IMG/VR virus record: IMGVR_UViG_3300007511_000053
Span: 1 to 38,284 of that record
Length of the DNA: 38,284 nt
Direction: 5' to 3' (one strand)
Source of the DNA: a virus
Of the stretch, positions 4,489-29,452 are shown in pieces (positions within the stretch are counted from its first letter, which is position 1; every line of letters starts with the position of its first letter). A model generated the notes under the pieces. The model was not told where the DNA came from and did not search any database. It worked only from the letters and a program-made list of their open reading frames with translations. Position numbers and translations under genes: made by a program.

Positions 4489-4489
4489 T

Positions 4490-9626: not shown

Positions 9627-12358
9627 TAACTTTGAACTCCAGGTATTCTAACATTATTAACTATTATCATTCCGGTATTTTCGATTCGCGTATTTGGTTC
9701 TACGAAATTTATGATGTTTCGGTTTATCGTCGAGGAATTGTCTTCTGCACGTCTTTGGCCTTGCAAGCCTATCCTTGTAGTCTGATTAGTTCTAGGCAAA
9801 TATTTGTCTTCGATACTAAGAGATGAAAAATCCGATTGTTGAGATTCTATGTCTTCAAGTGTCCTTATGACTGAAAATATATCATTCAACAAACCACCTG
9901 ACGTATTGGATAGAATTAACCTAGCCAATTCTGATTGGGATGATTCCTGCTCTGCTAGAGATTCAAGGTAAGCTTCTCCATCATCTTCCATATCGTATGC
10001 ATCAATAAGTGAAGATTCCAAGAAAGAATAGTTTTCCGAAGCGGTTCCTACCCCTGCCGCCAGTCCCTCTAAGCTCGATCTAAATGTTCTATTTATTGAT
10101 GGCACCTCTATCGTAGTCGAAGGTAGATACTCGGCGACGTTAGCCACATATCTATCCAACAGCTCATCTGGATAATTAACTACCACACCACGACTTCTGG
10201 ACCTCAGAACGTATTCAAGGTTAAATTCTATCTTCGCCAAATCTTCAGGAGATAAAACTTCAAATTGGCTTGGGGAAAGACCCAACTGTTCAATCGTCAA
10301 TATAGACAAAGTCGTAGAGTCTGGATTTATAGAGAACACTCGGGACGGCCGTGTGTAATTCAGAGTATTAGAAGATAAAAAATTCTCTAAGTTATTGTAA
10401 TCTAAATATATTTCTTCTGGGCTGGTAGCTTGAATGGGCTTAAGGGTATTGAACTTAACCTCCAACATATTAGTCCTACTATTAGAGGGGACTCGCCTTT
10501 TCGATCCGTACACTTCACTATTCAAACCTTCTTCGTAGTTTGTGACTTTATCATACATCTTTATCAAAATGTTCTCCAGTTTTAAATAACTATCATAGAA
10601 AAGCATCAGCGAATCTAGCGAGCCGTTTCGCTCTGGTAGGATCGAGTCTATAAAAGCGGAGTTGTCTGCTACCAAAGCATCTATACCCAATATTCCGAGA
10701 ACCTGAAAGTATAATGAAATAGATCTTTGAAGCCCAATACTGTCTTGGTCTCGATAATCGTCAGACCACCGGTTTGTTAAAAAGTTGTAATTGCCGACGC
10801 TCGTTGTTTTTTTCGACTCTGTAATTGAGTCGTATACATCGACGATAATGTCAGGATCACTCTCCGACGTTATTATCGCGCCCGAAGCGTCGCACAAGAG
10901 TTTATTTATGTCTTTCTTTCCTTCCTTCATCGATTCGATAATAAGAGACACGTAATCCGGAATGGAATCAGACATTGTTATCTCTACTTCATATTTGTAC
11001 TTGCCATAATTTATTTTCTTGAAGAGTTCAGAATCTCTCAGTATAAATTTAACTGCACGTGCAAAGTTTTCATCTTCACTGTCAACTTGACCATATTCTA
11101 CTTGCTCAATTGATAGATCACTTTGACTCATACCAACCAGTGATCCTTCGGTGGTTTCGTATATTTTTATATATGATTCGTCTCCAGTGTGTTCGAACTC
11201 ATAATCTGAGGTGCCCACCCTGTTTGATGATGCTGCATAATTTTTTAGTTTTTTTCTGGTTATTTTCATGCACTCTATCTTACTATTTGAAAGAATATTA
11301 TCTAAAAATACAGATCTAACTCCAGGTTCCAACACTGTATTTTCTTTACCTAACAAAAATCCTAATGGAGACAGGTTTCGTAAAACCTTCAACTTATCAA
11401 TGGCAAACATTGAACTATGATCTCCTCCAAGATTGTCCGTGTAGTTTATCCAACTAACGTTCTCAAGCATTGCGAACGACTGGTCCTGGACCGTTCTTAG
11501 TGCGGATTGCTTTACTACCCTTTCGACTGCCTCAGATTCCAATGCGGCTGCAGAAATACTTCCAGAGCCGGCTGTATAAATGGAATGATAATCAACTCTA
11601 GATCTCCAAGAGAAAGGGTCCGGGATTCCGGAGCCCGGAAGTGTAGCTGGACCCATATCATCCTCTTCAAGCTTGACCGGATTCATCATGTATCCTTCAA
11701 ACGGAGTAGAAGTGTCAAAGCCTATTTGCAAATTAGAAACAGTTGAGTCTGTTGCTGAAAATTTATGGTCAAGCTTGCTAGCAAAAAACACTGGTTGGTA
11801 CTTTCCAATACCACCAAGAGTTAAAATCTCACCTTGACCATTTGTTATATTGTAATGAGAAAAAATCTCCTCGTAATCAATGTGAGCGTAATAAATAATA
11901 TTCAAAGAGATTCCGTTATTTGAATCTTCCAAGCGATCCATAATGTCGTCCCCATCTCCAAAGCGATGTTCGACATCAAAATGCAACTTGTTGGTTGCAA
12001 AATCTTGAGACACAGGTGAACCAATTGAGGTCTCATACACTCCTTGTCGTATTTCAGACATAGAGAGTGACAAGTCGATCGGATGAGCACCTAGCATTAC
12101 TTCCTCCAGCCCCCTAACTCTACCAAAGGGGTTTTCCAATAGACTAAAGGACTGTTCGGACAATGTCCTATCCTGAGGGGATCTGGATTCTTCTATGATT
12201 ATACTAAAGTAATATTTTATAAAAGGAGATAAATCCTCTTCTCCGACCCAAAAAGGTTGCACTGAAGAATTTATTGTATCTATAGATGCATAAATCTTAA
12301 CATAGTCTTTAGTCACATCGACCCTATTGATAAACGGCTCTGGAAATACGTTACTCAA
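9626..12358 (-). CDS. large virion structural protein (910 aa), TTG start
   Basis: No family is recognised. The protein is acidic, with a beta-type N-terminal third (VDVTKDYVKIYASIDT near residue 15, VEHRFGDGDDIMD near 125-140) and a more helical, Asp/Glu/Ser-rich C-terminal half; there is no signal peptide or membrane helix. The start codon is TTG, overlapping the TGA of the 303-aa gene as TTGA; GGAGGG lies 9 nt upstream, and the only in-frame alternative before a stop codon is ATA. It is coupled to the 981-aa gene through TAATG, and the two may act as a pair in the baseplate (inference from position only). Confidence 0.7.
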   Translation of the reverse strand: MSNVFPEPFINRVDVTKDYVKIYASIDTINSSVQPFWVGEEDLSPFIKYYFSIIIEESRSPQDRTLSEQSFSLLENPFGRVRGLEEVMLGAHPIDLSLSMSEIRQGVYETSIGSPVSQDFATNKLHFDVEHRFGDGDDIMDRLEDSNNGISLNIIYYAHIDYEEIFSHYNITNGQGEILTLGGIGKYQPVFFASKLDHKFSATDSTVSNLQIGFDTSTPFEGYMMNPVKLEEDDMGPATLPGSGIPDPFSWRSRVDYHSIYTAGSGSISAAALESEAVERVVKQSALRTVQDQSFAMLENVSWINYTDNLGGDHSSMFAIDKLKVLRNLSPLGFLLGKENTVLEPGVRSVFLDNILSNSKIECMKITRKKLKNYAASSNRVGTSDYEFEHTGDESYIKIYETTEGSLVGMSQSDLSIEQVEYGQVDSEDENFARAVKFILRDSELFKKINYGKYKYEVEITMSDSIPDYVSLIIESMKEGKKDINKLLCDASGAIITSESDPDIIVDVYDSITESKKTTSVGNYNFLTNRWSDDYRDQDSIGLQRSISLYFQVLGILGIDALVADNSAFIDSILPERNGSLDSLMLFYDSYLKLENILIKMYDKVTNYEEGLNSEVYGSKRRVPSNSRTNMLEVKFNTLKPIQATSPEEIYLDYNNLENFLSSNTLNYTRPSRVFSINPDSTTLSILTIEQLGLSPSQFEVLSPEDLAKIEFNLEYVLRSRSRGVVVNYPDELLDRYVANVAEYLPSTTIEVPSINRTFRSSLEGLAAGVGTASENYSFLESSLIDAYDMEDDGEAYLESLAEQESSQSELARLILSNTSGGLLNDIFSVIRTLEDIESQQSDFSSLSIEDKYLPRTNQTTRIGLQGQRRAEDNSSTINRNIINFVEPNTRIENTGMIIVNNVRIPGVQS

Positions 12359-13266
12359 TATTCATTACCCTCCGTAGTGTGCGGTTCTGGTGTCATTTCT
12401 CTCGACTGTCCAAATATGTTTCTCTGGCTTCTTCTCTTGAGAGCATAGTCGTCAACTGACTCGTCAGTTTTTATTACAAATTTCTTTAATATTTCTTCCA
12501 TGGTCCGGAGTGGTATCAGCTGCTCTTTGGAGTTTTCTTCAATTATTTCATAAACTTCCACTTCAAAGTTATTATTTGTGTATTCGACACTGTCCTCAAC
12601 AACAGAAAAAATAACCTTTTTATCCCCTATAATAATCCTTGTGTTATCAAGAAAACGCACCTGGTTTGACATCAGGTCCAAGTCTTCGTCCTCATCTGTC
12701 ATTAGTAGTGAGGAGGGAACATCGCTCTGCTCTGTCCTATCAACATACACAACATATTCAGGTTCAACTAATAGCTGAGGAATTGGCACCACTAAACTAT
12801 CGTCTTGAACAGCCGGTATGCTTGGTAAGCCACTACTTGTCAAAGTCAAGGATGATTGGTCAATATCTATGTCTACCCCGGACAGCATGGTGACCTTAAC
12901 ACTTGGAAGTTCTCGGGTAGACAATTGCTGATTAGCCAGTTGATATTTCAGAAGCTTACTGTTGGACATTGGATCCTGGGATTCTTCCAGATTTTCATAC
13001 AGACCTCTCTGTCCCTGTATTATCTTATTAGTTTCTATATCAAATCGCGACTCTATTCCTGCAACCTCTGCTTGCGTTGACAGAACGAGATCTTGCTTTA
13101 TTCGAGGCTGCGATTCATTTTGTTTCTCTGAGTCTTTTTTATAGGTGATTCCGTCGTCGAAGAACGCGTAATACTCAGGCTTGAACCTACCTTTGGACAG
13201 CAATTTTTTTCCGTAGGCTGTCAATCTAATGTCTATTACGTCTTCTTTTTTGTTTAAAAATGTCAT
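12355..13266 (-). CDS. virion structural protein (303 aa) sharing the N-terminal domain of the 338-aa protein
   Basis: Residues 1-45 (MTFLNKKEDVIDIRLTAYGK, then KGRFKPEYYAFFDDGITY) follow the same pattern as the 338-aa protein. The rest is acidic, with many Asp/Glu/Val residues, a stretch of short beta segments (about 120-240) and a Gln/Ser/Glu-rich end. TAGGA lies 8 nt before the ATG and overlaps the stop of the giant gene upstream, so translation is probably linked. Its position directly after the 4028-aa protein suggests it is an assembly partner of it (inference). No enzymatic motif was seen. Confidence 0.7.
   Translation of the reverse strand: MTFLNKKEDVIDIRLTAYGKKLLSKGRFKPEYYAFFDDGITYKKDSEKQNESQPRIKQDLVLSTQAEVAGIESRFDIETNKIIQGQRGLYENLEESQDPMSNSKLLKYQLANQQLSTRELPSVKVTMLSGVDIDIDQSSLTLTSSGLPSIPAVQDDSLVVPIPQLLVEPEYVVYVDRTEQSDVPSSLLMTDEDEDLDLMSNQVRFLDNTRIIIGDKKVIFSVVEDSVEYTNNNFEVEVYEIIEENSKEQLIPLRTMEEILKKFVIKTDESVDDYALKRRSQRNIFGQSREMTPEPHTTEGNEY
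12368..12373 (-). promoter_or_regulatory. ribosome binding site deciding the TTG start of the 910-aa gene
   Basis: GGAGGG on the minus strand, 9 nt before TTG at 12358-12356. An ATG between the two (12366-12364) is in another frame and meets a stop after four codons. Confidence 0.6.
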
Positions 13267-13275
13267 TTTAAAATC

Positions 13276-16200
13276 CTACGTCTTCTTCTTAAAGTCTGTT
13301 TTCGCCCTGACTTTAATTAGTTCAACTATAGAAAAGTAGTCGTAAGGCCAGTTATAAGAAGTTTCTTTCAACTTGTCTTCAAACTCTGTGTTTTTAGGCG
13401 AATAAGAAGAGTCTAACAATTTGCCCCCCGCCTTATTTAGTGTCAAGCTTTGCTCCTTCACGCTCTCCAGTGAGTAGTTGGCTCGTTGCTTAACCTTAAA
13501 CACTAGCCACCTGACGTGATTATCCAAGAAATTATCCAGTCCACCTTCGACGAATGGTACATTATTAGCAGAATCTAAGAAGATCGAAGAATATTTCGTA
13601 TCGATCTTTAAATTCTCTAGTCGCTCATTGTCTAAAATTCCATAACTGTATCTAGCTTGTGCTCCGGACCCCTTAGAGGCCGGCATTACATTCTGCCATA
13701 TGTTCGCAAGATCTTGCTTGTCCAAACTACCGTTGAACTGAAAGACAAAAGCCAAAGGTACAGGAGGCAGGGGTGGCAACTTTGAGTATCTAGGCAAATC
13801 GAATCGCGGTGGGAAAACAAATTTCTCCATCATCCTCAACTGGAACGCTACAGATTCCACAGGGTTGTTACCAGGATTGTTAAAATAGCTTTCATACTGT
13901 TCGTCGCGGGGTTGACGATCGAGATTCCTATTTAATTCAATTGCATCTAGATGATACTCCTCTTTTATATCTAAGAACCTTTGAACGCCTGCATCGAGAT
14001 AGAATGGTATCGCAACAACAGCTTCTGAAAATTGAAAAGACTCTTGCCTCAATTTGCCGGCTTGCTTGACAATACTCGCATTCTGGTTGCCGTAAAAATT
14101 AACCTTCCTTGCGAGACTCGGCGCGCCTTGAATATCAGATATAGACAAGTAGTATCCCTTTCTTGAATCTTCATAGTCTCCTGATTGGTGCCACATACCA
14201 CGAGATGACGTCAAGTATGAAGCCGAACTAGTGACTATTGCGTCTTTAAAGTAATAATCTCTCTGATTTCTCTCTTTCCAATATGAAGAAGTGACTTGCT
14301 CAGTGGTGCTGGTTCCTAGATTTATTACACTTGCTGTGGCGTTGGTGAAATCCATTACAGGAGTCTGCCATTTTGCTTGAATTACCCAACGCTTTGCCGC
14401 GTCGCGGTCATCTCGGGTACCTGACTCCACATCTGATTCGTATATAGAATAGGAGTTCAAATCTAATGAAGCGCTCAAATTCATCGCATTTGTAAAGTTT
14501 GTGCTTCCAGAATTATTTAGATCAGTTGTTGCGACAAGTGGCGAAGAACTTAAATTTGTATATTCGTACTGTAGGTTTTCTACTATTTCGTCAAGTGAAT
14601 ATTCCTTGGAACCACCAGTGTCATCGCTTGGACGAAAAGTAACATCTACATAAGGCCGGGTGCCCTTGTCCAAAAACGGAGGAACGTACGGCAAGTATCC
14701 ATGGCCGGCTCTTACAGTCTCTGACGTTCTCTGTATTCTGGTTGCACCAGAGACAGCATCCGCGCCGCCTGTAAATTCTGCGGCAGATGTATTTGACGCG
14801 TCGAAAGTGTTCGTACCAAAAGGCCCTGATGGATCCGCGTATCCAATGTTTCCGTAAAACTTATTTGTAGAACCAGCACTGTTAAGGTGAGCCACCGTAG
14901 TGTTGTATTGATCCCCTCCAACCTCTTGCAAGATGTGTATTTTGTATCTGCTCAGTCCAATATATGAATCATAATAGGTGTATTTAAATACCTGAATATC
15001 AAGACCAGCAGCGTTGGCCGCTACTAGCTCGTCGTATGTGTCATCCCGAAGTTGTTGTATTGTCCTTCCATTGACATTTATATATCGGTTAACGGTTTCA
15101 TCCGCGGAACTTGCATTGAAAGTGTTGTAGTTGTCGCTAGTAAAGGACAGCGAACCAAGAGCAGAGACACTATTGTAGTATCTTATGTTTATAGTCTTTG
15201 TAAAGTGACTTGTGTTTCCACCTAGGCTCGTAATAATCGAAAAACCTGGGAGTGTCCCTGCCGTGGCTGCTGTTGGAGAAGAGTAACCGTTAGGGTTAAA
15301 CTCAAGTGAAACAGAAGCAACCTGAGCATCTGTGTCGTATGAGACCTCTTGGAGCTTTGCAAAACTCAAATCCCCCTCATCTACTGGTGGACCAAAAGCT
15401 GAATGTCTATCATACATCATGACATCTCTATTTTGTAACATTATTCTCATCTTGTAATCTGTATCTTTTTGAAAGAAAGCCTTTGACGGGGCAGTTGCCT
15501 CAAACGTGACTAGTCCATCGTCGTTGAAGATATTTGTAACTTCAGCGCAGAAGTTGTTTACCGCCATTCGATATGGTAGCATAGTCCTGTTTAAGTTGTC
15601 CGACTCCTGTACATCAACTCCGAGAAGTTCGGATGTTCGCTCGCGATTTAAGGACCCAAAGACAAAAGGACGATCAACGGCAGCCTCCCAGAAATGGTTT
15701 CCATAAGCTAAACTAGCAGAGGGATGCGGCTCGTTATCATAAATCAAGACACCCTCTAACCTGGCGGGATCCAACATTTCTTCAAAAGTAACTCTGTGCG
15801 AAACTGAACCAGTTAATCTGGGTATTCCACTGTCTGAGTTTAGGTGGAAAAAAGATCCTGTTACTCCGGCGGATGATGTGACGGGGTCTGCCTTATCGAA
15901 CGTGACATGCGATTGCTTGTATGGGCCCGACCCAGTAATTGGAGAACCAAAAAACCCAATTAGGCCCGCGGGGTTGTCGGCACTAAAAGACCCAGTCATA
16001 TCACCGTGATCTCTTTCGAAGATAGGATAATCCACTGCCATACCAGACTTTATGGAATTTAATAATACCCCAGGGGAAAAGAGCGATTTTATAGATTGTT
16101 GCAAGTTTGCTCTCTTCTTAGAATCAAGTACAGCGAGTCGGTTATCAAAATCACTACCGTTGAACGCCGTAGAATTTGCAGTCAACACCCCATCCACGTT

Positions 16201-19200
16201 GCTCAAATATTTATTAGAAAAGACTCTACCAATCTGGAGTACTCTTTCCGCGGGGTAAAAACCCTCGTATGGAACAAATTTTATTGCCGCGTCGCATCGT
16301 AAAGTAAGGCGCATGGGCGAAAGGTCATCATTACTATTGCCCTTAACTAATTTAAAATGTTGCAAGATGTCACTGGTTGAATATTCCTGGAACACGGTCT
16401 CGTTGTTTCTTTCTCTTCTCGTATCTAGACGAGAACCTGTAAGTGTTAAAAATTGTTCTTTGCTACCATCTTTTCCAATATCAGCAAAGAGGCCATTACT
16501 ATCCAAGACCGGCTCTATAAAGTCACTCATTCTAAATTCTGAAACTATCGAATAATCCTTTGATATTGCCCTTATTTCCTGAATGTTTTCTCCATGAGAA
16601 TCCGTATATGGGTAAGACCCTATCTGTTCCGCAGCGAGCCATTGTGCCTGTCCCGCTAAGTGCACTGCTGTCTGTGAGGAGTTTGCTTGCAAAACTCTTC
16701 GGTTATATGTCATTGCCGGCGGGGCAGTGATATATGTAGGGTCAATACCCATTGCAAAAGTTCCGTATTCATTTTGAAGCTCGCCAGAGCCATCTGAGCC
16801 AAGTGGCGCTACTGCGCGCGTATCTGTAAAATATGAAACTCCAATATTTCGCGGTGCGGTACCGCCCTCAAACGCGTTAGATGCATCAAGGGGCCAGGAT
16901 GAGGCCTGAATATTAACAACCGAAGGGTCAGTTAGGCTCGTATATTTGCCGTCTATTCCCATGGAGTTTGTCTTACCGTCTTGTAGGACAGATTTATTTA
17001 CCTGCTTCGGGAACAAATAATAACCAAACATAGTGTCTGGCTCCTCGATCGTAACTGATCCCGTAAGAGAAACAGCTCTATTGTTTCTCTCACTATTCCA
17101 AGGATGAGAAAAATCCAGTCGGGCGCGTGTGCCTGCCAGAAATTCCCTTTTAGCAGGTGGATACAGGGTCTCAACAAAAGACACCTGCAATTGTCTTCCA
17201 TACTCTTGTTTAATCTTTTTAACCAAAGAAACGAACTGATGATTTCCTTCCAAATCACCATAGAGCCGGGGGAGCATTCGACCAGAATTTTGTCTCTCGA
17301 TATCAATACCAAGGCTAGTACCAATTCCGCTAGTATTCGAAAACCTATTGAAGAAATCAACGTCGTTTTGATATGTGGTTTTAACCGTAGCTATCGGTGT
17401 GTCCGATCCTATGGAAAGATCAGATGCTCTGAACTCGAATGGCACAACTTCAGACGCCCAGAAAGATTCAGCATCAACTTGTGTTTCTGACGAGATTCCT
17501 AACTCTAGCGGATTGAAAAATCTCCCCTCGCTATTAGGATTTGGGCCGCGGCCTATAATACTAATTCTTGCATTGCGGAACTGGCTGGCTCTATTTTGTG
17601 TAACTATAGACCCGTTCGAAAGAAAGTTAATCACGGCTGGATTCAACTTGTTAGTGATCGGTGCAATAACATGTGATCTGAACTCGCTCTGACCAATGGC
17701 GTGGCGATCTCTTTGTGCTTCGTTCACTGACTTATACAGAGAGGGTGTGTAATCAAAATTATATCCCTGTCCGGCTTGCAGCGGCTTGGGGAAATTGGCA
17801 CTAGGTGGCATGAATTTTCCTGCCATAGAATAAGTGTTGTTCTTTCTCTGATTTCTAGCCAATGGGTGGTCTGCGACTCTAAGCTGGTTCCAAGAGGACC
17901 AGTAGTAGTGCGGAAGCGCATCAGTGAATGTATCATTTCTCTTATAAGAAGCGCTGACGTCTTGTGCAAAGAAAGTCTTTATTGGTATAGACGTCGACCC
18001 AGAGACAGTTGAATAGATTTGAGCCTCGTAGAGAGCTTCAGTGCCAACAACCGGTGAGTGTTCTTCAATCGTCGCGGGGGATGCCAGCGGATAGCTTCCC
18101 GAAAATATCCAGTAGTGATGTATCTTACTGTAGAAAGATAGTTGATCCAGGTCCTTGTCATATGACGTGTTGAAGCTTGTGCTCGAACCGGCACCTTGAA
18201 CAATCGACAATGTATTGGCCTTCGAGTCTACTTCGATCTCTCTACTTATCTTCTCGAAGGTACCCTCTCTTAATCTGTATGTCTGTGCTGCATATTCATT
18301 AAACTCTTTAGCTTCTGAGTCGGAGATAGATCCGGATATCACCATGAAATCATAGAGATCAACGTCTCCGATGCCGACTGTGCTCAGAGGTTCGCCAATA
18401 CGGACTGTTTGAGCACCAGACCCGGTTGGTAATTCTGATGGTGATCCATTCGATGAGACAGTTACGTTATCTGGAGATACTTGACTTCCATCTTGCCAGG
18501 CTGTAATTCTGTCTGCCGTTGCCTCATCTCCCTTATAATAAATAACAAAGTTGTGCCAAGAACTAGACAACAGAGTGATAGGAACTGTATAGCGAGTGTC
18601 ATCCAAGTTACCACCATTTCCGTTGCTTGTTCTAAGTACCAAATAATCCTGATCTACTGTTTCTGAAAGGTTATCTGTCAAGATCTCAACATCAATATAG
18701 TTGCTACCAATTGAGAATATGCCGGCGCCGGGGTATCTTAGGTTCTCGGCGCGCAGATTGAACGCAAAGCCAAACGAACTGTCAGAACCATCTGTGCTTC
18801 CATTATCAAAGTTAAATAAAGTAGTTGCACTAGATGTCAACTTTGACGGAACGGATGCTGACAATACAGATTCTCCAGTCTGCTTGATTCGTAGGCAACT
18901 ATCATCCTTCAGACTTTGCTCTATTCTGTGTAGTCGGAAAGGACTATCATGAGATAATTTCAAGGCGTTCTCGCCTGCCAAGCTGGAACTGTTATTGAAA
19001 CTGTGAGTGTAGGAGAATCCATCGTTATTGTACAAGAATTGATCGAGTGACCCAGATGAATTATTTCTAATCCACGAATACCCAAAGTCATTTTGAGGTA
19101 TCGTAAAAGTCTGAAACGCATTATCAAACTTGGACGTAGTTGAAAAGAACGATTCGTCCGTTGTAATTGACGATTGAACCATGTCGGATCCCAGTGAACA

Positions 19201-22200
19201 CTCTACAATCTGAGGTGCGAATGAGTCGTTGCTGGGTTCAAAGTTTATATTTGCTGTGTTTCCTCCGACATAGTCGAAAAGTTTTCTAGTAGTATCTAAG
19301 TCATCACCCATCTTGTACCATGCAACAACATCACTATACTTAGAATGTTTAGTCACATCCATAACTTTCCCATCGTTATACAACTCGATAACCTGCTGGT
19401 GAGTAAGTTGTTGGCCGGCTGCATGCTTAAAGATCGTTACATCTGCCATCTTGCCGTCAAAATTCAAATCACCGCGAGTTGATAAAATTGAGCCCAAATA
19501 CACCCCAGCATCCTGGTTGGCCATACCAGTATATGAACCTCCTGATGAATCTGAGAAGCTGGTTATTTTTCTCTTATTGACATATATGTTTATCCCAGAT
19601 GCTGCCTCGTTTCCAGAATATGTTACAACTACATGATACCACCTGTCTGGTTCCTTAACTACATCAAACTGCGTAGTCCTTGTTATACTGTTTCCAGCAC
19701 TAGTCTTGAATAAGGTCACTGTAATCTTTTGAGCGTTCAGGTAAACATAGTATTCGGGTTCCGAAGCTAAAGTTGTCTTATAGAACTTGGCAATCATATA
19801 TTTTGCCGTAGTCAGTTCCGATGGGTTAACCCAAAATGAAAAAGTAAACCCCTTATCGTTTCCTGAGCCGTCTGTAAAAGAGAAGTCGTCACTGTCGCTA
19901 GCTATCACGTAATCAGAGTTATTAAAGTCAAGAGCTTTAGAGTTTAGAGGAACCAATTTGTTGGACATGATACTTGACAGTGTTTTTCTCGTGTTTCTAT
20001 TTGTCTTGTGTACTGAGCCTTGCGTTGTGGATCCGGACCTGTATCCGAACTGATCAGATTGTTCCGCCAGTAATTTATTGTTCACACCTCTCACTAGACT
20101 GTTTCTGTAATTTAGTGTGTTGTAAACGGATAATTCTCCAGACTCTCTATCCATACCAAATGCAGTCATCGATTCAGGAGAACCTGGTGCGGAGAAGCGA
20201 CTCACAAAGACATGATCACTTGCAGACGAGGACTGTTTGGTAAAATCAACGACGCCAGATATGTATGTAGACTGAATATCCTCTATTAAAGCCTCTCCAT
20301 GGTTAGCTAAAGCTCTATTATTGGTTTCACGGCCGTGTGCTTGTACGATCTGATAATCCTTCTGGTAGTTCCCCAGAATTTTAGAGCCTGTATTATCCTT
20401 TATATTTCTAACCACATAAGGTGTAGATACTCCTGTCGATCTTCTCAATTGTGATTTTGGAGTGGAGGTATCTACGACTGACATCGTCAAAGCGTTTGTG
20501 TTATAACTTATACTATACGCTTCTGGTCTTTCAGTGGTCTTTGTCCATTCTACGGCCTGATGAGGCATCAATCCTTCGTGCTGGTGTGAAAAAGGACCCT
20601 GCAACACAGACCGGTCAATTGTGGATATGTCAGTGACCTCTATATTGGACCTGAAATTTGGAAGGTCACTCACAGTTGAGCTAGACAGAAAATTGAAAGG
20701 CAAGGTGTGTTTAGAGTCGAAAAGCTCTCCGCCAAAAGAGACCGTTGTGTCAAACTCATGCTTCCTTGTGTTTGTTATTGTATCTTCGTCCAGGCAACCA
20801 TCCCTCTCTCTGATCAGGTCTGCCGAGTTTACCACAATGTCTCTCTCTTCGTTTATTGATTTATAAAACTCATCAGAAATATCTCTCTGGACTAAAATCT
20901 GTTGACTATCTATTCCAAGCTTATAGGGTTTAACCAGGGCCCTTCTTGCATAAGTCGACCCAGACACCTCTGTCGTAACTACCCTCCTCAATGCACTTGA
21001 CTTCTGAACTATTAAAGTACTCTGTGGGAGATAGGGAGAGTCAAGTTCTAAGTTAGCCGTCCCGGCTGCAGAAGAGGCCCCATGTAATGAACCAAGATTG
21101 TCCAACACACGATTGGCACCGTCAGAATAATATGAACCTGTTAGTGGATTATATGTACTGTTCGACAACGGCCAGTACGCAAGCATCTTATCTTCAGTAT
21201 CAAGACTGCCATCAGACTTTAAGAGTGGCAGTGTACTGCCTGAGATCAACAGGCTCATATAATCAACACGGAGTGGCGTTCCAGTGTTAGTGTCTACCTT
21301 CCTAAAAAATCCGATGTTCGTCTGTTTATTCGTAAACTTCTCTGCCTCCAGGGAAGATCCATTTACAGCGTAAACCAGATCCACCATCCTTAACTTGCCC
21401 TTCATTATAATAAGGTCTTCGTCGGTATCATCGTAGGCAGCGTGCGCGCCGTCACCCTGGATTATACCCAGATAAGTACCGTTCTCTTCTTTAGTGTCAA
21501 ACGATGTTACGATCACTCCATCAATATATGCTATTAGCGCGTTCTCTGAAAACTTTGTGCCGTCGTGCTTTTGTTCATGTATCAAGACGTGATGCCATTG
21601 ACCCTGCGTAAATGCGGAGTTCTTTTGTATCGTCAGATTGTTTGAAGATTTACCAAACCGAACAAATAGATGTCCACCAGTTAGGGCTTTTATCGTAAAC
21701 TCGTCATCCTTTTCCACCAAGATATTGTCTATAGAAGTGTCATCTACCTTTACATAGAATGACCATATCACGCCTCTTGGTTTAGCAAAATAATTACCAC
21801 CAAACGTAAAATCAGTGTAGGGCGTAAATAAGGCATTATCACCAAAAGAAACAAAGTTGGTCGCGGCTGATATTCTCAATGTTTCCACATTGTTAGGTTG
21901 GGTTTTAAGTACGTCGTCTAATTCCCTTCTTTCCTGATTCCACACACAATTTGAGTTCTCTGTGTTTCTTAACGGAGCGTGGCCCAACCTCCAATTATAA
22001 TCTAATTCATTTATGCCGAAGATTGAGTGTGTGTCCTCGTTAGCTTTGAATTCTATCGTAGGAGCAGGGTGTTGATATTTGTTTCTCTCCAGGATGTGAC
22101 TCTCTACAGTGTTTCTTAGTTTATCAGTAACGTTTGCAGAAGCAGGCATGAGCTGAGTCAGAGCCTTTGACAGTGAACTGTCTATCCACCTATAGTATTC

Positions 22201-25200
22201 AACAAATTTATCCAAATCAATCGTATTCTGAACTCGACTGAAAAACCTTTCTCTCAGGGTATTTAATGACTTGTATTCATGACGATACTTGTTTACGGTT
22301 GCACCGATAAGAGTGTTGTATCCCGAAATTCCCGCGAAGAAGTCTAGGGCGCGTTCGGATATTATCTGGTACATACTCTTTTCGAAGATGAATTTCTTCA
22401 CCACAGGTTTTGAAGATGCAGTGAATCTTTCAACTTCAGAGTCTACTATATCAACCGCGGTGGATGTGTGTCGGTTGCCCATGGGTGTAATCTTAACAAA
22501 AGGCATAAATTCTTGACTTATCGTGCCCGAGATGTTTCCAAAATTCACCCCAAGTGCGGGATACTTATATCCAACAATTGTTCCCATGGTAGCATCAGAT
22601 ACTTTCCCTGCAGAACCAGAAGATAAATCTTCCACACTGATTTGTCCTGATGGGTTTGACGAAGTCAGATTCTCAAACTGCCACCGAAAAACAAGCGAGT
22701 CTGCAGCAGTTAGATTCTGGCCGCTGTCCTCTTTGATTATTTCAAACGGATTTTTCCTACCAAAATAACTTGAGTTTTGAGCATGCACCTGCAATTCTTC
22801 ATCTGTTAATCTATCCAGCCACATGGCGGCGCCTAGACTCTTTACATTTGACCTATTAAGAATAGAGCCCACAAGATTAGCTCTCTCTGCCCCAAGGTAT
22901 GCGTACTTGTTAGAACTATTGAAAGAATCATAATTTGCCTTAGATATACTAGAGGACACCGAAAAGGATGACTGTTGAATATCTAAATCATAATTGTAAC
23001 CGGTAAATTCAACCTTATACGAATCTGATGCAGAGACAGGTAGAATATTATTATCCAAGTCTTGATCCTTGGATACTCTCACTGACAAGTGCCAGTGCTC
23101 ATCATCATATACATTTGCATATGTGCTCGACGTGACCTCTGTAAAAAGCCCTTGTGAACTTGTCAAAAGAAAATAAGCATGCTTCTCAGCTGATTGCGGG
23201 CGTACTGAAAAAACTTGGAAATTGTCTGACAACCCGAACAATGATGCTTGACGAATATCGGGGTCCAAGTTTTTACTTGGGGCTATGATGTTGCTTTCTA
23301 GAGTGTATGCACATGGAATGTGAGAGCCAGTGATGTGACCAAGCGCATCTCCAGTTGCTGATGACGTCAGGTACAATGTTGCACCAGTATTTAGCGGTTC
23401 TGAAAAGTCCAGACTTTTCTGTTTAACTGTCTCAAAACTCACGTCATTTAAGATCGTTCTTGACTCGTTCTCAGTGTAGACGTTAAACTTAATTAAATCT
23501 GTATCAACTCCGAAACATCTCATCATGTTCCTGAAGGAATTTTCCGTTCCCTTAGTGTTATAAATGTGTGTCAGGTTTTTATGTATGTTTGATAGTATTG
23601 TGTTTTTAACTTCTCCAAGTTTGTAGTCAAAATTCTTTACATCTGATGCCTGGTTGAAAATTTCGTACATTTCTGCGTTGTCAAAAATATCAGGAACCAA
23701 AAATCCGTAGTGCTGCAGAGTGTCAGATATCCACGGTTTCGTCTTAGAACCGGCAGTTTTAAAATCCTCGTCAGTATCGCAACCAAAAAAGAAACTGTCT
23801 ACCGATAGATTTCGAGTTTTTGTTCGCGATGAGAACAGATCTTTATCTTGGTACTCCTTCATTCTCGGTAGGAACATTATCTTCAGAAAAATATCGTCTA
23901 ATGCGCTAGCTAATATTTGCAAAAGCTCCGGTAATAAATCTTGGTCTTGGTCTCTCATAAATTGAGGTATACTGTTGACAAGTGAGTTATTGTTTGCAGA
24001 GTCGTAATTTGATCCTATTTCGACGAATTCTTGCCTCTTTGTTTCTACACTTGGACTCGCAGGTATAACTATGGGGTCTGCAGGTTCAACATAATCGCTT
24101 TGTGGCAAGTTCTCGGATAAGTCAATACCAGAACGAGAATCTCTACAATCAGACTTGTAGTTCACTATTGTTCCGTTATTAACTCTGCCGGAATAGTCTA
24201 GAACCACTTTGTCTTCCCTATCTTCGCCTGTGGTACCCTCATTAAATTTAAAATACAATCCAAGATCTGCGTTAGAGTGATCCAGGTCGGTGCCGCCATT
24301 AACAGGTCTGTACCAGTTTCTACCTATTTCCTTTGCTGTTCTTTCTTTCTTCCAATATCGCACCTCGTCAATCGAGGCCCTAAGGGCGCCTGTAACATTT
24401 ATGGCTGAAAGATCTTCAGAGCAAAGTGCACCAATAGAGCCAGTAATTGGTCGATCTACTGATCCGATAGCCTCGTTGTGCGAAGTGGTAGAATCAAGAG
24501 TTCCGTCTTTGTATAGTTTGATTTGAGTCGTGGATCCGCTGGTGACTGCAGAGATGGCGTAATGGTGCCATTTACTATCCGCAGTGGTTGCTTTCGTGAT
24601 GTTCGATGACCCAATTCTAAGGGAGTCTGCACCCGTGGCGTTACCAGACATATAGGTGAATAAGAATGGACTTTGAGAGTCAGACGCAGGATTTTCAATC
24701 TCTATCTTAATTCTACCAAAATCAGTTGCCGCGGTTGAAAACTTTGACGTCGTCGCGTCGAAAACGACCTCTCTTAATCCTTCTTTATAAAAAGAGGTTG
24801 AACTTTTCTTAAGCCAAAATTCTATCGTGTTTCCTTTTGTACCATCTATCTTTAAATTACTTTCCCTGTTTAAGGAAGGGTTAAAGATTGTGTTTTCATG
24901 CGGACCACCAGAAAAAGTTACATATGTTGCGTTTCGTGTGACTCCATAATTTGACACATTATGGGCGTGATCTAGATTTGTCAATTTCAAAAAGCCTTTG
25001 CTTTTTGGATATTCATGTTCAAAAATATACAAATCGATTACAGAAGAACTTAGAGACCACTCTATCTTTTCGGCGCGGGAGCCGTCATACGGATAAGTCT
25101 CTAGGATTCGGTCAAAACTGTCTTCATAGTATTTTTTAGCGCTTCCATACTGACAGAAAGTTTCTGGATTTCTGTGATCTATGGGAGGTATGTATCTGGC

Positions 25201-25362
25201 TTGTTGTTCTTTGTATGCTAACAGAAATCTATCGGACTCGATACCTGGTGGTAACGCGTTAGAGCCCGAAAAGGGGACGCCATTCTGTTGATGTTTATCA
25301 TTATAATAAGATGAGAGACTCACCGTCCCTCTACTTTTAAATATATCTCTATAATCTGTCAT
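13276..25362 (-). CDS. giant baseplate protein (4028 aa) with LamG-like domains and a gpI/gp7-like segment
   Basis: Probable baseplate wedge protein with surface-binding domains. LamG/concanavalin-like sandwiches are suggested at about residues 144-400, 650-895, 1175-1412, 1805-2042 and 2176-2360. They show the recurrent pattern of an early FW or FY strand (IEFWLKK, FSFWVNP), a W-H-x motif (KWHHYAIS, QWHHVLIH, RWYHVVVTY, SWHNFVIYY) and a late IDEVRYW/MADVTIF strand. Residues about 455-620 resemble the Tail_P2_I/T4 gp7 core: QDLLPELLQILASALDDIF, then HIYNTKGTENSFRNMMRCF. Residues 2400-4028 are beta-rich without a known name, ending with a PPLPPVPLAF and DLANIWQNVMP segment near 3870. The gene overlaps the 619-aa gene by ATGA and follows gp6, the place of gpI after gpJ in P2. 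LamG folds often bind glycans; host attachment is inferred. Confidence 0.8.
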   Translation of the reverse strand: MTDYRDIFKSRGTVSLSSYYNDKHQQNGVPFSGSNALPPGIESDRFLLAYKEQQARYIPPIDHRNPETFCQYGSAKKYYEDSFDRILETYPYDGSRAEKIEWSLSSSVIDLYIFEHEYPKSKGFLKLTNLDHAHNVSNYGVTRNATYVTFSGGPHENTIFNPSLNRESNLKIDGTKGNTIEFWLKKSSTSFYKEGLREVVFDATTSKFSTAATDFGRIKIEIENPASDSQSPFLFTYMSGNATGADSLRIGSSNITKATTADSKWHHYAISAVTSGSTTQIKLYKDGTLDSTTSHNEAIGSVDRPITGSIGALCSEDLSAINVTGALRASIDEVRYWKKERTAKEIGRNWYRPVNGGTDLDHSNADLGLYFKFNEGTTGEDREDKVVLDYSGRVNNGTIVNYKSDCRDSRSGIDLSENLPQSDYVEPADPIVIPASPSVETKRQEFVEIGSNYDSANNNSLVNSIPQFMRDQDQDLLPELLQILASALDDIFLKIMFLPRMKEYQDKDLFSSRTKTRNLSVDSFFFGCDTDEDFKTAGSKTKPWISDTLQHYGFLVPDIFDNAEMYEIFNQASDVKNFDYKLGEVKNTILSNIHKNLTHIYNTKGTENSFRNMMRCFGVDTDLIKFNVYTENESRTILNDVSFETVKQKSLDFSEPLNTGATLYLTSSATGDALGHITGSHIPCAYTLESNIIAPSKNLDPDIRQASLFGLSDNFQVFSVRPQSAEKHAYFLLTSSQGLFTEVTSSTYANVYDDEHWHLSVRVSKDQDLDNNILPVSASDSYKVEFTGYNYDLDIQQSSFSVSSSISKANYDSFNSSNKYAYLGAERANLVGSILNRSNVKSLGAAMWLDRLTDEELQVHAQNSSYFGRKNPFEIIKEDSGQNLTAADSLVFRWQFENLTSSNPSGQISVEDLSSGSAGKVSDATMGTIVGYKYPALGVNFGNISGTISQEFMPFVKITPMGNRHTSTAVDIVDSEVERFTASSKPVVKKFIFEKSMYQIISERALDFFAGISGYNTLIGATVNKYRHEYKSLNTLRERFFSRVQNTIDLDKFVEYYRWIDSSLSKALTQLMPASANVTDKLRNTVESHILERNKYQHPAPTIEFKANEDTHSIFGINELDYNWRLGHAPLRNTENSNCVWNQERRELDDVLKTQPNNVETLRISAATNFVSFGDNALFTPYTDFTFGGNYFAKPRGVIWSFYVKVDDTSIDNILVEKDDEFTIKALTGGHLFVRFGKSSNNLTIQKNSAFTQGQWHHVLIHEQKHDGTKFSENALIAYIDGVIVTSFDTKEENGTYLGIIQGDGAHAAYDDTDEDLIIMKGKLRMVDLVYAVNGSSLEAEKFTNKQTNIGFFRKVDTNTGTPLRVDYMSLLISGSTLPLLKSDGSLDTEDKMLAYWPLSNSTYNPLTGSYYSDGANRVLDNLGSLHGASSAAGTANLELDSPYLPQSTLIVQKSSALRRVVTTEVSGSTYARRALVKPYKLGIDSQQILVQRDISDEFYKSINEERDIVVNSADLIRERDGCLDEDTITNTRKHEFDTTVSFGGELFDSKHTLPFNFLSSSTVSDLPNFRSNIEVTDISTIDRSVLQGPFSHQHEGLMPHQAVEWTKTTERPEAYSISYNTNALTMSVVDTSTPKSQLRRSTGVSTPYVVRNIKDNTGSKILGNYQKDYQIVQAHGRETNNRALANHGEALIEDIQSTYISGVVDFTKQSSSASDHVFVSRFSAPGSPESMTAFGMDRESGELSVYNTLNYRNSLVRGVNNKLLAEQSDQFGYRSGSTTQGSVHKTNRNTRKTLSSIMSNKLVPLNSKALDFNNSDYVIASDSDDFSFTDGSGNDKGFTFSFWVNPSELTTAKYMIAKFYKTTLASEPEYYVYLNAQKITVTLFKTSAGNSITRTTQFDVVKEPDRWYHVVVTYSGNEAASGINIYVNKRKITSFSDSSGGSYTGMANQDAGVYLGSILSTRGDLNFDGKMADVTIFKHAAGQQLTHQQVIELYNDGKVMDVTKHSKYSDVVAWYKMGDDLDTTRKLFDYVGGNTANINFEPSNDSFAPQIVECSLGSDMVQSSITTDESFFSTTSKFDNAFQTFTIPQNDFGYSWIRNNSSGSLDQFLYNNDGFSYTHSFNNSSSLAGENALKLSHDSPFRLHRIEQSLKDDSCLRIKQTGESVLSASVPSKLTSSATTLFNFDNGSTDGSDSSFGFAFNLRAENLRYPGAGIFSIGSNYIDVEILTDNLSETVDQDYLVLRTSNGNGGNLDDTRYTVPITLLSSSWHNFVIYYKGDEATADRITAWQDGSQVSPDNVTVSSNGSPSELPTGSGAQTVRIGEPLSTVGIGDVDLYDFMVISGSISDSEAKEFNEYAAQTYRLREGTFEKISREIEVDSKANTLSIVQGAGSSTSFNTSYDKDLDQLSFYSKIHHYWIFSGSYPLASPATIEEHSPVVGTEALYEAQIYSTVSGSTSIPIKTFFAQDVSASYKRNDTFTDALPHYYWSSWNQLRVADHPLARNQRKNNTYSMAGKFMPPSANFPKPLQAGQGYNFDYTPSLYKSVNEAQRDRHAIGQSEFRSHVIAPITNKLNPAVINFLSNGSIVTQNRASQFRNARISIIGRGPNPNSEGRFFNPLELGISSETQVDAESFWASEVVPFEFRASDLSIGSDTPIATVKTTYQNDVDFFNRFSNTSGIGTSLGIDIERQNSGRMLPRLYGDLEGNHQFVSLVKKIKQEYGRQLQVSFVETLYPPAKREFLAGTRARLDFSHPWNSERNNRAVSLTGSVTIEEPDTMFGYYLFPKQVNKSVLQDGKTNSMGIDGKYTSLTDPSVVNIQASSWPLDASNAFEGGTAPRNIGVSYFTDTRAVAPLGSDGSGELQNEYGTFAMGIDPTYITAPPAMTYNRRVLQANSSQTAVHLAGQAQWLAAEQIGSYPYTDSHGENIQEIRAISKDYSIVSEFRMSDFIEPVLDSNGLFADIGKDGSKEQFLTLTGSRLDTRRERNNETVFQEYSTSDILQHFKLVKGNSNDDLSPMRLTLRCDAAIKFVPYEGFYPAERVLQIGRVFSNKYLSNVDGVLTANSTAFNGSDFDNRLAVLDSKKRANLQQSIKSLFSPGVLLNSIKSGMAVDYPIFERDHGDMTGSFSADNPAGLIGFFGSPITGSGPYKQSHVTFDKADPVTSSAGVTGSFFHLNSDSGIPRLTGSVSHRVTFEEMLDPARLEGVLIYDNEPHPSASLAYGNHFWEAAVDRPFVFGSLNRERTSELLGVDVQESDNLNRTMLPYRMAVNNFCAEVTNIFNDDGLVTFEATAPSKAFFQKDTDYKMRIMLQNRDVMMYDRHSAFGPPVDEGDLSFAKLQEVSYDTDAQVASVSLEFNPNGYSSPTAATAGTLPGFSIITSLGGNTSHFTKTINIRYYNSVSALGSLSFTSDNYNTFNASSADETVNRYINVNGRTIQQLRDDTYDELVAANAAGLDIQVFKYTYYDSYIGLSRYKIHILQEVGGDQYNTTVAHLNSAGSTNKFYGNIGYADPSGPFGTNTFDASNTSAAEFTGGADAVSGATRIQRTSETVRAGHGYLPYVPPFLDKGTRPYVDVTFRPSDDTGGSKEYSLDEIVENLQYEYTNLSSSPLVATTDLNNSGSTNFTNAMNLSASLDLNSYSIYESDVESGTRDDRDAAKRWVIQAKWQTPVMDFTNATASVINLGTSTTEQVTSSYWKERNQRDYYFKDAIVTSSASYLTSSRGMWHQSGDYEDSRKGYYLSISDIQGAPSLARKVNFYGNQNASIVKQAGKLRQESFQFSEAVVAIPFYLDAGVQRFLDIKEEYHLDAIELNRNLDRQPRDEQYESYFNNPGNNPVESVAFQLRMMEKFVFPPRFDLPRYSKLPPLPPVPLAFVFQFNGSLDKQDLANIWQNVMPASKGSGAQARYSYGILDNERLENLKIDTKYSSIFLDSANNVPFVEGGLDNFLDNHVRWLVFKVKQRANYSLESVKEQSLTLNKAGGKLLDSSYSPKNTEFEDKLKETSYNWPYDYFSIVELIKVRAKTDFKKKT

Positions 25363-27218
25363 GGTTCTACTCTAAATCTAAATTTTTCCGTTTGTTCTAC
25401 ATAGCTTGCGCCATCTTGCCTTAAGAAGCTAATCTCATAATTGTAGTTGGATTCCAATAGAGACATGTCAAGTTCAAAAAAGCTGCCGCTCATATCATAT
25501 GAGAGTGCTGAATATTGCGTTGATGATCCTGTTGTATAAGGCACAACTACATGATTATCAGAAACTCTACTAACCTGAAAGAATCCTTGCCTTAAGACAC
25601 TGACTGGTGCTCTTGCCGAAGCTACGGTGTAAACATTTGGTGATAACGCCTTGTTTCTCGTGTATATTCTAAATATTGCTTTCTCCTCGTTGCCATACGA
25701 CGGCTTTAAGTTCGTGATGTTCAACGAATATGAGTCTATGTCATAATGGGAATGTAAACTATCAGAAACAATATTTATGTGAGATCCAGTGTGCAATTGT
25801 ATATATCCAGAAGATCCGGAGTACTGCCAGACGTCTATCAATGTAGACAGGGTGCCATCGTATGTAAATTGTGCCTCGTAAATACCCAGGCTGTGTCGGC
25901 TAGCAGTTACATATGTCCTGCTGTGTGATTGAACTCCTGCTCCGACAGGTAGAGTTTCGGCCGTGGTGGCGCTAGCGCTTGAATATAATTGCACTAGCAG
26001 TGCTGATCCTGTGCCTGCAATGTCTGCAAGGCCGCTTCTTTGCTTGTTATATAGGTATATTCTATTGGTATTGTCAGATTCCGAAGCTAAACTGCTAGAT
26101 TTATAGGTTACCGTTCTATCATCTTTTATAGATTTGTCAAACCTAGCCTCGATGGCCGGCCTTCTGAAAAAGAACTGAGATGTTCTAGAGAACAACTTCT
26201 TTGTATAGAAGCTTTCTTGGTTTGTTCCATCTTCCGATGAGCCAGACAACCTCACAACAACTCCGTAATTTATAGCACCTGTGCCACCCGTCAAGGCTGT
26301 TGGTATATAAGTAAATTCTGAAGATTTCGAAGATGAAATTATAGTGTTACCATAATACCCCATCGCGGATTGAGATAAATTTAAAATGGTGTTATTTGCG
26401 GCACTGACAGAAGCGGTCAAATCACCAGCAAATGCCGTGTTTATCTGCTGAGTTAAACTAATAACTGTCTTGGGAATCGGATCCGTATCATCCGCGGATC
26501 TAGAAACAAAATACAAATTGTTGTCGGCGGTTCCTTCTGTTCCATTCTTAAACTGAAAGGTCTTTGGAACTCCTTTGTGTGAATATAGCAGTATCATTTC
26601 GTCAGCCGATGGAATATTATTGAAGTCGATATAAGCGCCGGCTCTCGTTGACTGTCCTGACTCGTGTGAAATCCAATCCTCAACCAAACTTGTTATGTCT
26701 ATATCTATGTCATCATCTTGTCGGTCGATAAATTTCGTAAATTCCATTGGGGAACTGCTGGCCTCTATGTGGCCGAGCGATGCGAAGTCACCACCTTGGT
26801 TGGTCCAGGCCACGCCGTCGCTGGAGGAGAGCCAATTACTTGCGTCAAGATCTCTATAACTTTCCATATCTAGGCCGCGGCCTTCTTCCCAGGAAACCAA
26901 CAGCGGACTGACCGACACAGTATATTGTTGTGGTGTTGTTTGTGCGTGTGCAACGTTATTGAACCTCAAGATAAATTCATCAGACCCCACCCCTTTAAGG
27001 GCACCAGAATTTCTATCCGCTAATATTGAGCCGGCTGGAAATTCAACAATAATTCTAGCCTGCTCAAGAGATGCGCTGCTAGCTTGGGCATATATACTAA
27101 AAAATTCAAGCACATCTGACGCACCCATATTAGAGAGTGTTGATCTACTTGATAGATTCTGCTTAAATGCAGTGGAAATTGTATTGTCTTTTGTTGCAAC
27201 GTACCTCTTAATTGTCAT
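25359..27218 (-). CDS. structural protein (619 aa) with DNRLRE-like N-terminal domain
   Basis: The first 210 residues follow the DNRLRE pattern seen in secreted and surface proteins: KDNTISTAF with GASDVLEFF at the start, a LEQARIIVEFPAGS strand, then VSWEEGRGLD, GVAWTNQGGDF and a DIDITSLVEDWIS segment ending in a YIDFN strand. DNRLRE domains are beta sandwiches, often part of surface assemblies. The remainder is Ser/Thr/Gly-rich and beta-like, with repeated SSS and GSG turns, and ends FRFRVEP. The gene lies between gp6 and the giant protein and is joined to both by 1- and 4-nt overlaps, which suggests the three are made in step. A wedge-associated or fibre-anchoring role is inferred. No catalytic motif was seen. 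Confidence 0.72.
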   Translation of the reverse strand: MTIKRYVATKDNTISTAFKQNLSSRSTLSNMGASDVLEFFSIYAQASSASLEQARIIVEFPAGSILADRNSGALKGVGSDEFILRFNNVAHAQTTPQQYTVSVSPLLVSWEEGRGLDMESYRDLDASNWLSSSDGVAWTNQGGDFASLGHIEASSSPMEFTKFIDRQDDDIDIDITSLVEDWISHESGQSTRAGAYIDFNNIPSADEMILLYSHKGVPKTFQFKNGTEGTADNNLYFVSRSADDTDPIPKTVISLTQQINTAFAGDLTASVSAANNTILNLSQSAMGYYGNTIISSSKSSEFTYIPTALTGGTGAINYGVVVRLSGSSEDGTNQESFYTKKLFSRTSQFFFRRPAIEARFDKSIKDDRTVTYKSSSLASESDNTNRIYLYNKQRSGLADIAGTGSALLVQLYSSASATTAETLPVGAGVQSHSRTYVTASRHSLGIYEAQFTYDGTLSTLIDVWQYSGSSGYIQLHTGSHINIVSDSLHSHYDIDSYSLNITNLKPSYGNEEKAIFRIYTRNKALSPNVYTVASARAPVSVLRQGFFQVSRVSDNHVVVPYTTGSSTQYSALSYDMSGSFFELDMSLLESNYNYEISFLRQDGASYVEQTEKFRFRVEP

Positions 27219-29011
27219 TATTTAATAACCCCTGAAATGTCTGTTAAAAATTTAATCTCCCATATTGAGTCTCTTGGTACGTAAAGAACCCTACCGTCCC
27301 TCGATAATCCAGAGTCAATAGAATAACTGAATCCAGAATAATTTCCACCTGAAAAATTATCTATTTCTATATTCACAACATCTAAAACCTCATCAATATT
27401 CTTCAGAACCTTAAAAACTTCTGTTATATAAAATGGCTGACCTATCTCTGGTGGGATCTCTCTAAACTCTTCGAATAGCTTCTCTCTTATTGTCGCATAG
27501 AGCGCGCTTTTATTGGAATACTCCTGAGCTATTACCTCAAACTTAATTCCTATATTCAACACATTAGCGTCTAAAATGTCAATCGAGTCAGACACCATCT
27601 TCAGCGAGTTAAGCCAAACCTTTAAATTCTGTTTAAGTGCGTTAGAAGACTTCTCCAACTCAGAGTCTGCATTCTCCGAAATAACGTACATATTTAAATT
27701 ACGCCTCAAGTCGTCCTCGTCTCGAATAGCTGAGCATCTTTTTATGGATCCAAATTTAGACGGCATGGCGTACGCTGCGCTGATATAATCCTGCAGAGTC
27801 ACCGCTCTAGATTGAGTTGCGAACTGGGAAACTGCCCTTCTCTTAATCTCTTCGGTTGTGGGTGTCGAAATATCTCCGTTTATTGGTTCTTCATTATATA
27901 CAGAAAGGTTGGTGGTGATATAATTTATTTTCGCCTGATCTAGTTGTTGTTGATTTTCAAACACCAGGTCCGGGTTGTGCACATTAACAATTGTACCAGC
28001 TGCTACGTTTGTGTTCTCTACGTTGTTATATCTGTAGGTTATAGTTAAATTTGTATTAGAAGGAGAAACTCCAAATTTATCAGAGGTTATCAAATTTGAA
28101 GGATCGAAAGAAGTGTTTGATACGTAGTTTTTTCCTGAAATCTGTAATGCGACATCTGACGGTTCTGCTATAGTGTTATTTTTTATCTCTTTTTCCGATC
28201 CATAACCAAACACTATAAACGTTTTGCTTCCTTGCTTCTCTACGACAAATCTCCTCGTTACAGGGAATGCTCTCAAAATAGACGGAGTCCTTGAATCACC
28301 AACACCCTGGCGCGTCATTTCTCTAAACACGGTATTTTGACTTAAAAAATCAACCTCAAAGTATTCATTATTTTCATCATCAAGAACACTTACAATCTCG
28401 CTAATGCCGGCACCTGGAACTTCAATTTTCAAAAACCTCTGAAACTCTCCAATCTCAACAACCGTTGTAGATTGTTGGCCAGAAATAACCTGAGCTGTAG
28501 CTTTTGCAAGAAAGTAGTCAGTGCTGGTTCCATCCGATGAATCACTGGGTGATGCTGTTACCTCAACTGATGCGTCGCTAAAATCAACATTCTCGTTTAA
28601 AGTGAATGGTACTCCCGTAGATGTAGTGAATACTGTTCCTCTCATCATTTTTGGCAGATATGTAAGATCGGGAGCCACATTTGAGCCCGCGGGTACGGGA
28701 ATAAAAATATCAACTTCGCCGACCGATGACCTGTTCGGATCAAATTTATATCCAAGTTGCCGGGCGTGCATCAGTATATTGTCGTATTCCAGTGCGGTGT
28801 GCAAAAATGATTCGTTTGCATTATAGTCCAGATAGAATGAAAGGTTATCCCCAACGAGTGACAGGAGATCCAACATCATCGAGCCAAAAGATGCCTGGTT
28901 GAAGTCTTTAAATGTGTCTGGATAGTATCTCTTGACATATGAGATCAGGTCCTTCCTGATCGATTCAAAATCCTTACTAGTATAATTGACTGGGGTTACT
29001 TTCTTAATCAT
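27218..29011 (-). CDS. baseplate wedge protein, gp6/baseplate J family (597 aa)
   Basis: A core wedge subunit whose homologues dimerise to form the inner ring of contractile-tail baseplates. The N-terminal signature is clear: NYTSKDFESIRKDL (about 9-22), then FNQASFGSMMLDLLSLVGD and LSFYLDYNANESFL (up to about 70). The middle has the J-family segment VTLQDYISAAYAMPSKFGSI. The C-terminal domain shows IPPEIGQPFYITEVFKVL followed by a VLDVVNIEI strand. Length is close to T4 gp6 (about 660 aa) and longer than P2 gpJ. An AGAGGA ribosome site is directly preceded by a CTATTTAT element. It lies just after gp25, the usual order. The stop is coupled to the DNRLRE gene through TAATG. Confidence 0.9.
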   Translation of the reverse strand: MIKKVTPVNYTSKDFESIRKDLISYVKRYYPDTFKDFNQASFGSMMLDLLSLVGDNLSFYLDYNANESFLHTALEYDNILMHARQLGYKFDPNRSSVGEVDIFIPVPAGSNVAPDLTYLPKMMRGTVFTTSTGVPFTLNENVDFSDASVEVTASPSDSSDGTSTDYFLAKATAQVISGQQSTTVVEIGEFQRFLKIEVPGAGISEIVSVLDDENNEYFEVDFLSQNTVFREMTRQGVGDSRTPSILRAFPVTRRFVVEKQGSKTFIVFGYGSEKEIKNNTIAEPSDVALQISGKNYVSNTSFDPSNLITSDKFGVSPSNTNLTITYRYNNVENTNVAAGTIVNVHNPDLVFENQQQLDQAKINYITTNLSVYNEEPINGDISTPTTEEIKRRAVSQFATQSRAVTLQDYISAAYAMPSKFGSIKRCSAIRDEDDLRRNLNMYVISENADSELEKSSNALKQNLKVWLNSLKMVSDSIDILDANVLNIGIKFEVIAQEYSNKSALYATIREKLFEEFREIPPEIGQPFYITEVFKVLKNIDEVLDVVNIEIDNFSGGNYSGFSYSIDSGLSRDGRVLYVPRDSIWEIKFLTDISGVIK

Positions 29012-29047: not shown

Positions 29048-29452
29048 TTATATAACTTCTATCGCGGTCTCCGTTACTTTAAGGCCAAGGATTTCATGAA
29101 CTGAGAGTGGTATTATATTGTATCTGATTGTCATTTTTAAATAGTTGTTGTCGATATAACTGTTCCCCTGATCATCAAACTCGGTAAAATCTACGCTAAT
29201 CTCTATGAACGGCATGTATTTTTTCACTTGAGACTTAACTACTTGCTTGAGTCGCGACATCTTGTCAACACTATAGTTTTCAAATAAAAATCTGCTAACA
29301 CCTATTCCTAATTCTGGCTTGGCCGGCCATTCTCCAGGATTGGTTTGCAATAAAAATAAAATATTTTGTTTCACAGATTTCTCAAGCTCTAAATGAGAAG
29401 AGAACATACCATCTCTTTCAGACCTACCTAACGGGAATACGGGTTGCAACAT
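29048..29452 (-). CDS. baseplate wedge protein gp25/GPW family (134 aa)
   Basis: A small protein that joins gp6 and the sheath/tube region in the wedge and is conserved in nearly all contractile injection machines. Visible features are an N-terminal ELEKSVKQNILFLLQTNPGE helix region followed by KPELGIGVSRFLFE, which corresponds to the family's conserved turn (usually RPxFGxGLxxLLFEP), and a C-terminal beta pair ending in ITYN-like strands (MTIRYNIIPL). Length equals T4 gp25 (132 aa) within two residues. The start at 29452 has AAGGAG 9 nt upstream; an ATG-TAA start-stop pair sits in between. The position before gp6 matches T4-type and P2-type order. Confidence 0.88.
   Translation of the reverse strand: MLQPVFPLGRSERDGMFSSHLELEKSVKQNILFLLQTNPGEWPAKPELGIGVSRFLFENYSVDKMSRLKQVVKSQVKKYMPFIEISVDFTEFDDQGNSYIDNNYLKMTIRYNIIPLSVHEILGLKVTETAIEVI

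Follow-up and report, generated by a model that had tools for sequence, protein, structure and literature searches.

The window analysed in this study, a viral record of 38,284 bp, was found to contain a single uninterrupted ORF of 4028 codons (positions 13276-25362, minus strand; all further features of the window lie on the same strand), which encodes a giant protein of 4028 aa. Upstream of this ORF are genes for a gp25-like baseplate wedge protein (29048-29452; phrog_261, 9e-14), a 597-aa gp6-like baseplate wedge protein (27218-29011; phrog_219, 4.8e-25) and a 619-aa protein (25359-27218) whose position is conserved, while a 303-aa ORF (12355-13266) is conserved downstream. The gp6-like protein showed near-full-length matches in the Flavobacterium phage immuto, the Microcystis phage Mel-JY01 and the 484-kb genome of an uncultured phage (LR756508). 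The order gp25, gp6, an ORF of approximately 480-770 aa and the giant gene was kept in the IMG/VR loci that reach far enough. As the original prediction had it, the giant gene follows the gp25/gpW- and gp6/gpJ-type genes in the manner of gpI, but one ORF, the 619-aa gene, intervenes between gp6 and the giant gene. The giant protein is probably a component of the tail baseplate. It had no match in PHROG, and profile searches of PDB sequences returned nothing usable; matches to IcmE were discarded as repeat artefacts. Another giant ORF (29485-38193; 2902 aa) lies upstream of gp25, and its counterparts in relatives, which range from 1299 to 3167 aa, occupy the same place. Farther downstream of the giant gene (3295-5587), two fibre-like proteins of 365 and 397 aa are encoded, with paralogues in Mel-JY01 and immuto that have a conserved C-terminus in common; they are candidate separate fibre proteins.

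The giant protein was divided into an N-module, a MID module, variable parts (aa 1169-1457 and 1790-2490) and a C-module. The N-module (aa 1-1150) begins with a conserved helical segment (FGSA...YPYDGS; aa 40-130, positions 24973-25245) that could be aligned by eye with the FSSA segment in the homologue from the Flavobacterium phage. This segment is followed by the first LamG-type domain (LamG1; aa 147-400, 24163-24924), the KGT segment (NIYNNLxxIYKSKGTEKSFRNLxRCFG; aa 430-640, 23443-24075), LamG2 (aa 658-962, 22477-23391) and a helical tail (LIGxPVNRYR ... QLxPASxx...ESHxLERNKY; aa 968-1110, 22033-22461). The KGT segment and the helical tail are the candidate first and second halves of a gpI/gp7-like wedge core, and LamG2 sits between them. 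An insertion bearing LamG3 (aa 1169-1457, 20992-21858) precedes the MID module (aa 1458-1790, 19993-20991), and the variable region beyond it contains LamG4 (aa 1824-2011, 19330-19893) and a weakly supported LamG5 (aa 2223-2326, 18385-18696). The C-module (aa 2890-4028, 13276-16695) contains WMVFKVKQ and YSYNWPYDYFSLVEL.

The five LamG segments are marked by W[HY][HNL] motifs at aa 265, 757, 1256, 1908 and 2269. The strict form, W[HY][HN], occurred four times in the giant protein compared with a mean of 0.19 in the shuffled protein, and none of 1000 shuffles reached four. Pfam Laminin_G_3 matched segment 1 (E 6e-9), segment 4 (E 2e-17) and segment 3, the last with an E value of 2.6e-5 that lies just under the Pfam cut-off. 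Segment 2 had no Pfam match and formed a confident β-sandwich (pLDDT blocks of 80-91) in an AlphaFold2 model of aa 25-1127 that was built from 11 sequences and resolved only two LamG domains, LamG1 and LamG2. A Foldseek search with this model matched laminin LG, pentraxin and neurexin LNS chains. Segment 5 was weak, with an E value of 0.001 from an iterated family profile and no Pfam match. A LamG/concanavalin-like (PF13385) assignment was therefore obtained from Pfam for segments 1, 3 (just under cut-off) and 4 and from AlphaFold2 and Foldseek for segments 1 and 2, and it was weak for segment 5. The giant protein thus probably carries four to five lectin-like domains, and the approximately five LamG-like segments that had been predicted from the repeated W-H motif were recovered, three by Pfam, one by AlphaFold2 and one weakly.

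A single-protein IMG/VR search with the core retrieved no relatives because the peptide patterns were too specific, and the family was reached through an IMG/VR search based on gp6. The N-module was present in at least 557 IMG/VR stretches, and at least 76 non-redundant relatives could be aligned over the N-terminal helices, LamG1, the KGT segment, LamG2 and the helical LERNKY tail. Complete fused relatives ranged from 2783 to 4501 aa, with a median of 3079 aa. The mean identity to the window protein was 41% for LamG1, 31% for LamG2 and 35% for the KGT segment. Compact homologues were found after gp6 in immuto (1265 aa), Mel-JY01 (1336 aa) and the 484-kb uncultured phage (1400 aa), all of which have the KGT/tail core in common with the giant protein. 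As judged from the family alignment and the arrangement of these compact relatives, LamG1 and LamG2 are constitutive in the family and LamG3-5 are accessory. This is a large, undescribed family of proteins that have a constant core with swappable domains and are sometimes encoded by two genes; it has hundreds of metagenomic members, there is no Pfam or PHROG model for its core, and the relatives in isolated phages are annotated only as hypothetical.

The accessory LamGs occupied different positions among the relatives. A clean insertion of approximately 290 aa, the LamG3-bearing region, distinguishes the window protein from L037, the relative nearest to it, and the LamG4/5 region differed even between these two proteins. 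In 13-14 non-redundant relatives, the giant is encoded by two adjacent ORFs with the C-module on a separate ORF. Two split points were found, one past the N-module (L122 and L078) and one past the MID module, so that the MID module belongs to the N protein in some split relatives and to the C protein in others. At least nine changes between the fused and split states were needed on a FastTree tree, four of them forced by well-supported branches. Some of the splits could be sequencing frameshifts; the spacing of the two ORFs in L043 and L044 (an 8-bp gap and an 11-base overlap) resembles that of genuine gene pairs. Because of these recurrent splits, we regard the giant as a modular protein and not as a bloated gp7. 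The original description of a core fused to five LamG domains was accurate as to the existence of the LamG segments, but two of these are constitutive and LamG2 interrupts the KGT/tail core; it also did not recognise the C-terminal third as a conserved module in its own right, which some relatives encode as a distinct gene. PHROG scans of the standalone C-module relatives returned no function, and no C-module was seen in the immuto or Mel-JY01 protein.

The two core peptides on which the original prediction was based map to aa 477-492 (23887-23934) and aa 600-617 (23512-23565), which confirmed that the KGT-type segment lies between LamG segments 1 and 2. K-G-T was invariant across the 45-member family alignment, and hhalign of the KGT segment against the immuto protein gave 98.4% with an E value of 7.7e-15. 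The immuto-type protein has no LamG2 between its KGT and PAR/PAS motifs, and this arrangement points to an older, continuous core of KGT segment plus helical tail that LamG2 came to interrupt.

In a first hhalign comparison, the KGT segment and 10 gpI sequences had only a 26-column motif in common. The score rose when we included compact homologues, excised LamG2 and enlarged the gpI profile, choices that were made after the first result; the unified core and a gpI profile of 67 sequences then aligned over 117 collinear columns with a score of 28.9, an E value of 0.0019 and a probability of only 14%. Scores in the controls were lower: the maximum was 18.0 over 40 column shuffles and 18.7 over 12 further families taken from these genomes, and reversing the profile gave 14.7. 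The subset nearest the window protein alone scored 18.0 against gpI, which is noise, and the gpI link therefore depends on the compact bridging homologues. None of 45 family members matched PF09684 (Tail_P2_I) above the curated cut-off; four of them gave weak matches, the best with an E value of 0.083. In LR756508, the sole PF09684 signal was located inside the core (E 0.024; 12.7 bits compared with a cut-off of 20.6). The PF09684 search revealed no other Tail_P2_I candidate in seven relatives of 120-190 kb, in immuto or in Mel-JY01, so that a separate gpI gene, which would have spoken against the prediction, was not found in these genomes. An AlphaFold2 model of the compact immuto-type core (58 rows) reached a pLDDT of 45, and its Foldseek matches to ferritins and similar proteins were discarded as meaningless at this pLDDT. 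We consider a relationship between the core and gpI likely, on evidence that is suggestive and falls short of proof; the predicted link to Tail_P2_I stands in that the collinear match exceeds the controls, but the match is below threshold. Membership of the T4 gp7 family, which had also been proposed, was not supported: the core profile and HMM detected no homology to T4 gp7, gp8 or gp10, and the giant protein did not match the gp7 family phrog_964.

To place the giant protein among known systems, we compared it with several wedge proteins. It resembles P2 gpI in having a KGT motif, with flanking helices that may correspond, and in following gpJ/gp6, whereas gpI has only 176 aa and the core of the giant is interrupted by LamG2 within 4028 aa. 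T4 gp7 is likewise large, multi-domain and encoded downstream of gp6, but it has 1032 aa, directly follows gp6 and shows no detectable sequence similarity. The immuto and Mel-JY01 proteins contain the homologous core in the same place after gp25-gp6 but are smaller. In jumbo phage 121Q, a 3323-aa protein (phrog_10938; L319:23467-33438) follows the gp6-like wedge gene and is like the giant in size, position and KGT motif, and in Atu_ph07 a 4449-aa protein (L320:23537-36886) follows a gp6-like gene and has a KGT motif together with a sub-cut-off CBM_5_12 match, a possible carbohydrate-binding module. These two proteins have an FYxGxIxxKGT motif in common, but neither was matched by the core or LamG profiles of the window protein's family. 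The Vp4 baseplate wedge protein Gp119 (831 aa) contains carbohydrate-binding modules and binds bacterial cells (PMC11406892), and the wedge/baseplate proteins Alg11 and Alg12 of AlgoCIS also have carbohydrate-binding modules (PMC8894135); both systems differ from the giant in having CBM folds instead of LamG and in belonging to other lineages. Giant or carbohydrate-binding wedge proteins have precedents in 121Q, Atu_ph07 and Vp4 Gp119. Our searches of the open-licence literature retrieved no account of a baseplate wedge with LamG domains.

On balance, the giant protein appears to stand in for P2 gpI or T4 gp7 as a baseplate wedge protein, with built-in LamG1 and LamG2, putatively host-binding accessory LamGs and a C-module, an explanation that we hold to be somewhat probable. 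Its modules, their conservation, the insertion, the split and fused states and the gene order were observed directly, whereas we infer docking on the wedge and ligand binding from position, the gpI-like profile and the precedents. The KGT segment and helical tail would be two pieces of a single interrupted core by which the N-module attaches to the gp6-like wedge, and LamG1 and LamG2 may be platforms built into the outer face of the wedge as fixed parts of this anchor. The variable LamG region would face outward and touch the host surface or a fibre, where glycans or proteins of the host are the most likely ligands of the accessory LamGs, which would act in addition to the separate fibre-like proteins encoded downstream. 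The C-module may be a second baseplate part that closes the baseplate, supplied in cis here and by its own gene in some relatives. A role of the giant in first contact with the host is plausible.

The LamGs could instead be structural parts of a wedge protein that dock separate fibres and neighbouring wedges, and the host would then be contacted first by the fibre-like proteins encoded downstream. Consistent with such a role, LamG1 and LamG2 vary about as little as the KGT segment, immuto and Mel-JY01 encode homologues of the 365- and 397-aa proteins, and the gp7-like part of AlgoCIS holds the tail fibres (PMC8894135); the clean insertion of LamG3 and the variability of the LamG4/5 region, however, are what one would expect of binding domains adapted to the host, and we consider a purely structural role possible but rather unlikely. 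A further possibility, in which the giant belongs among the tail-fibre/adhesin-type or other peripheral baseplate proteins, is unrelated to gpI and gp7 and has a convergent KGT motif, would agree with the weak profile statistics, the low pLDDT of the core model, the KGT motifs of the unmatched 121Q and Atu_ph07 wedge-neighbours and the 619-aa gene between gp6 and the giant, but it is quite improbable given the 117-column match well above the shuffled and unrelated-family controls, the fixed position after gp25-gp6 and the lack of another gpI candidate in the seven large relatives, immuto and Mel-JY01.

If the core of the proposed wedge protein is gpI-like, it identifies the wedge subunit that had been missing in these phages, the variable LamG region becomes the first place to seek host-range determinants, and the recurrent split and fused states are natural experiments on the joining of baseplate parts. 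A wider reading is that host recognition has moved into the wedge in a large phage group, through a gpI-type core with an inserted lectin-like domain, exchangeable accessory domains and repeated fusion and splitting, so that receptor binding and the triggering of contraction would reside in one chain; we regard this as speculative and unlikely at present.

Two minor observations were made elsewhere in the window. The N-termini of the 303-aa protein and a 338-aa protein (5601-6617) are similar (MxFLxxxxDxxDxxLTxxGxxxLxxGxF), which suggests a common N-terminal domain. Additionally, two small proteins (139-624 and 758-1303) contain a near-identical stretch (MKKSELIKIIKEEVHNAL and MKKSQLIKIIKEETSNLL), perhaps a common targeting or propeptide signal.
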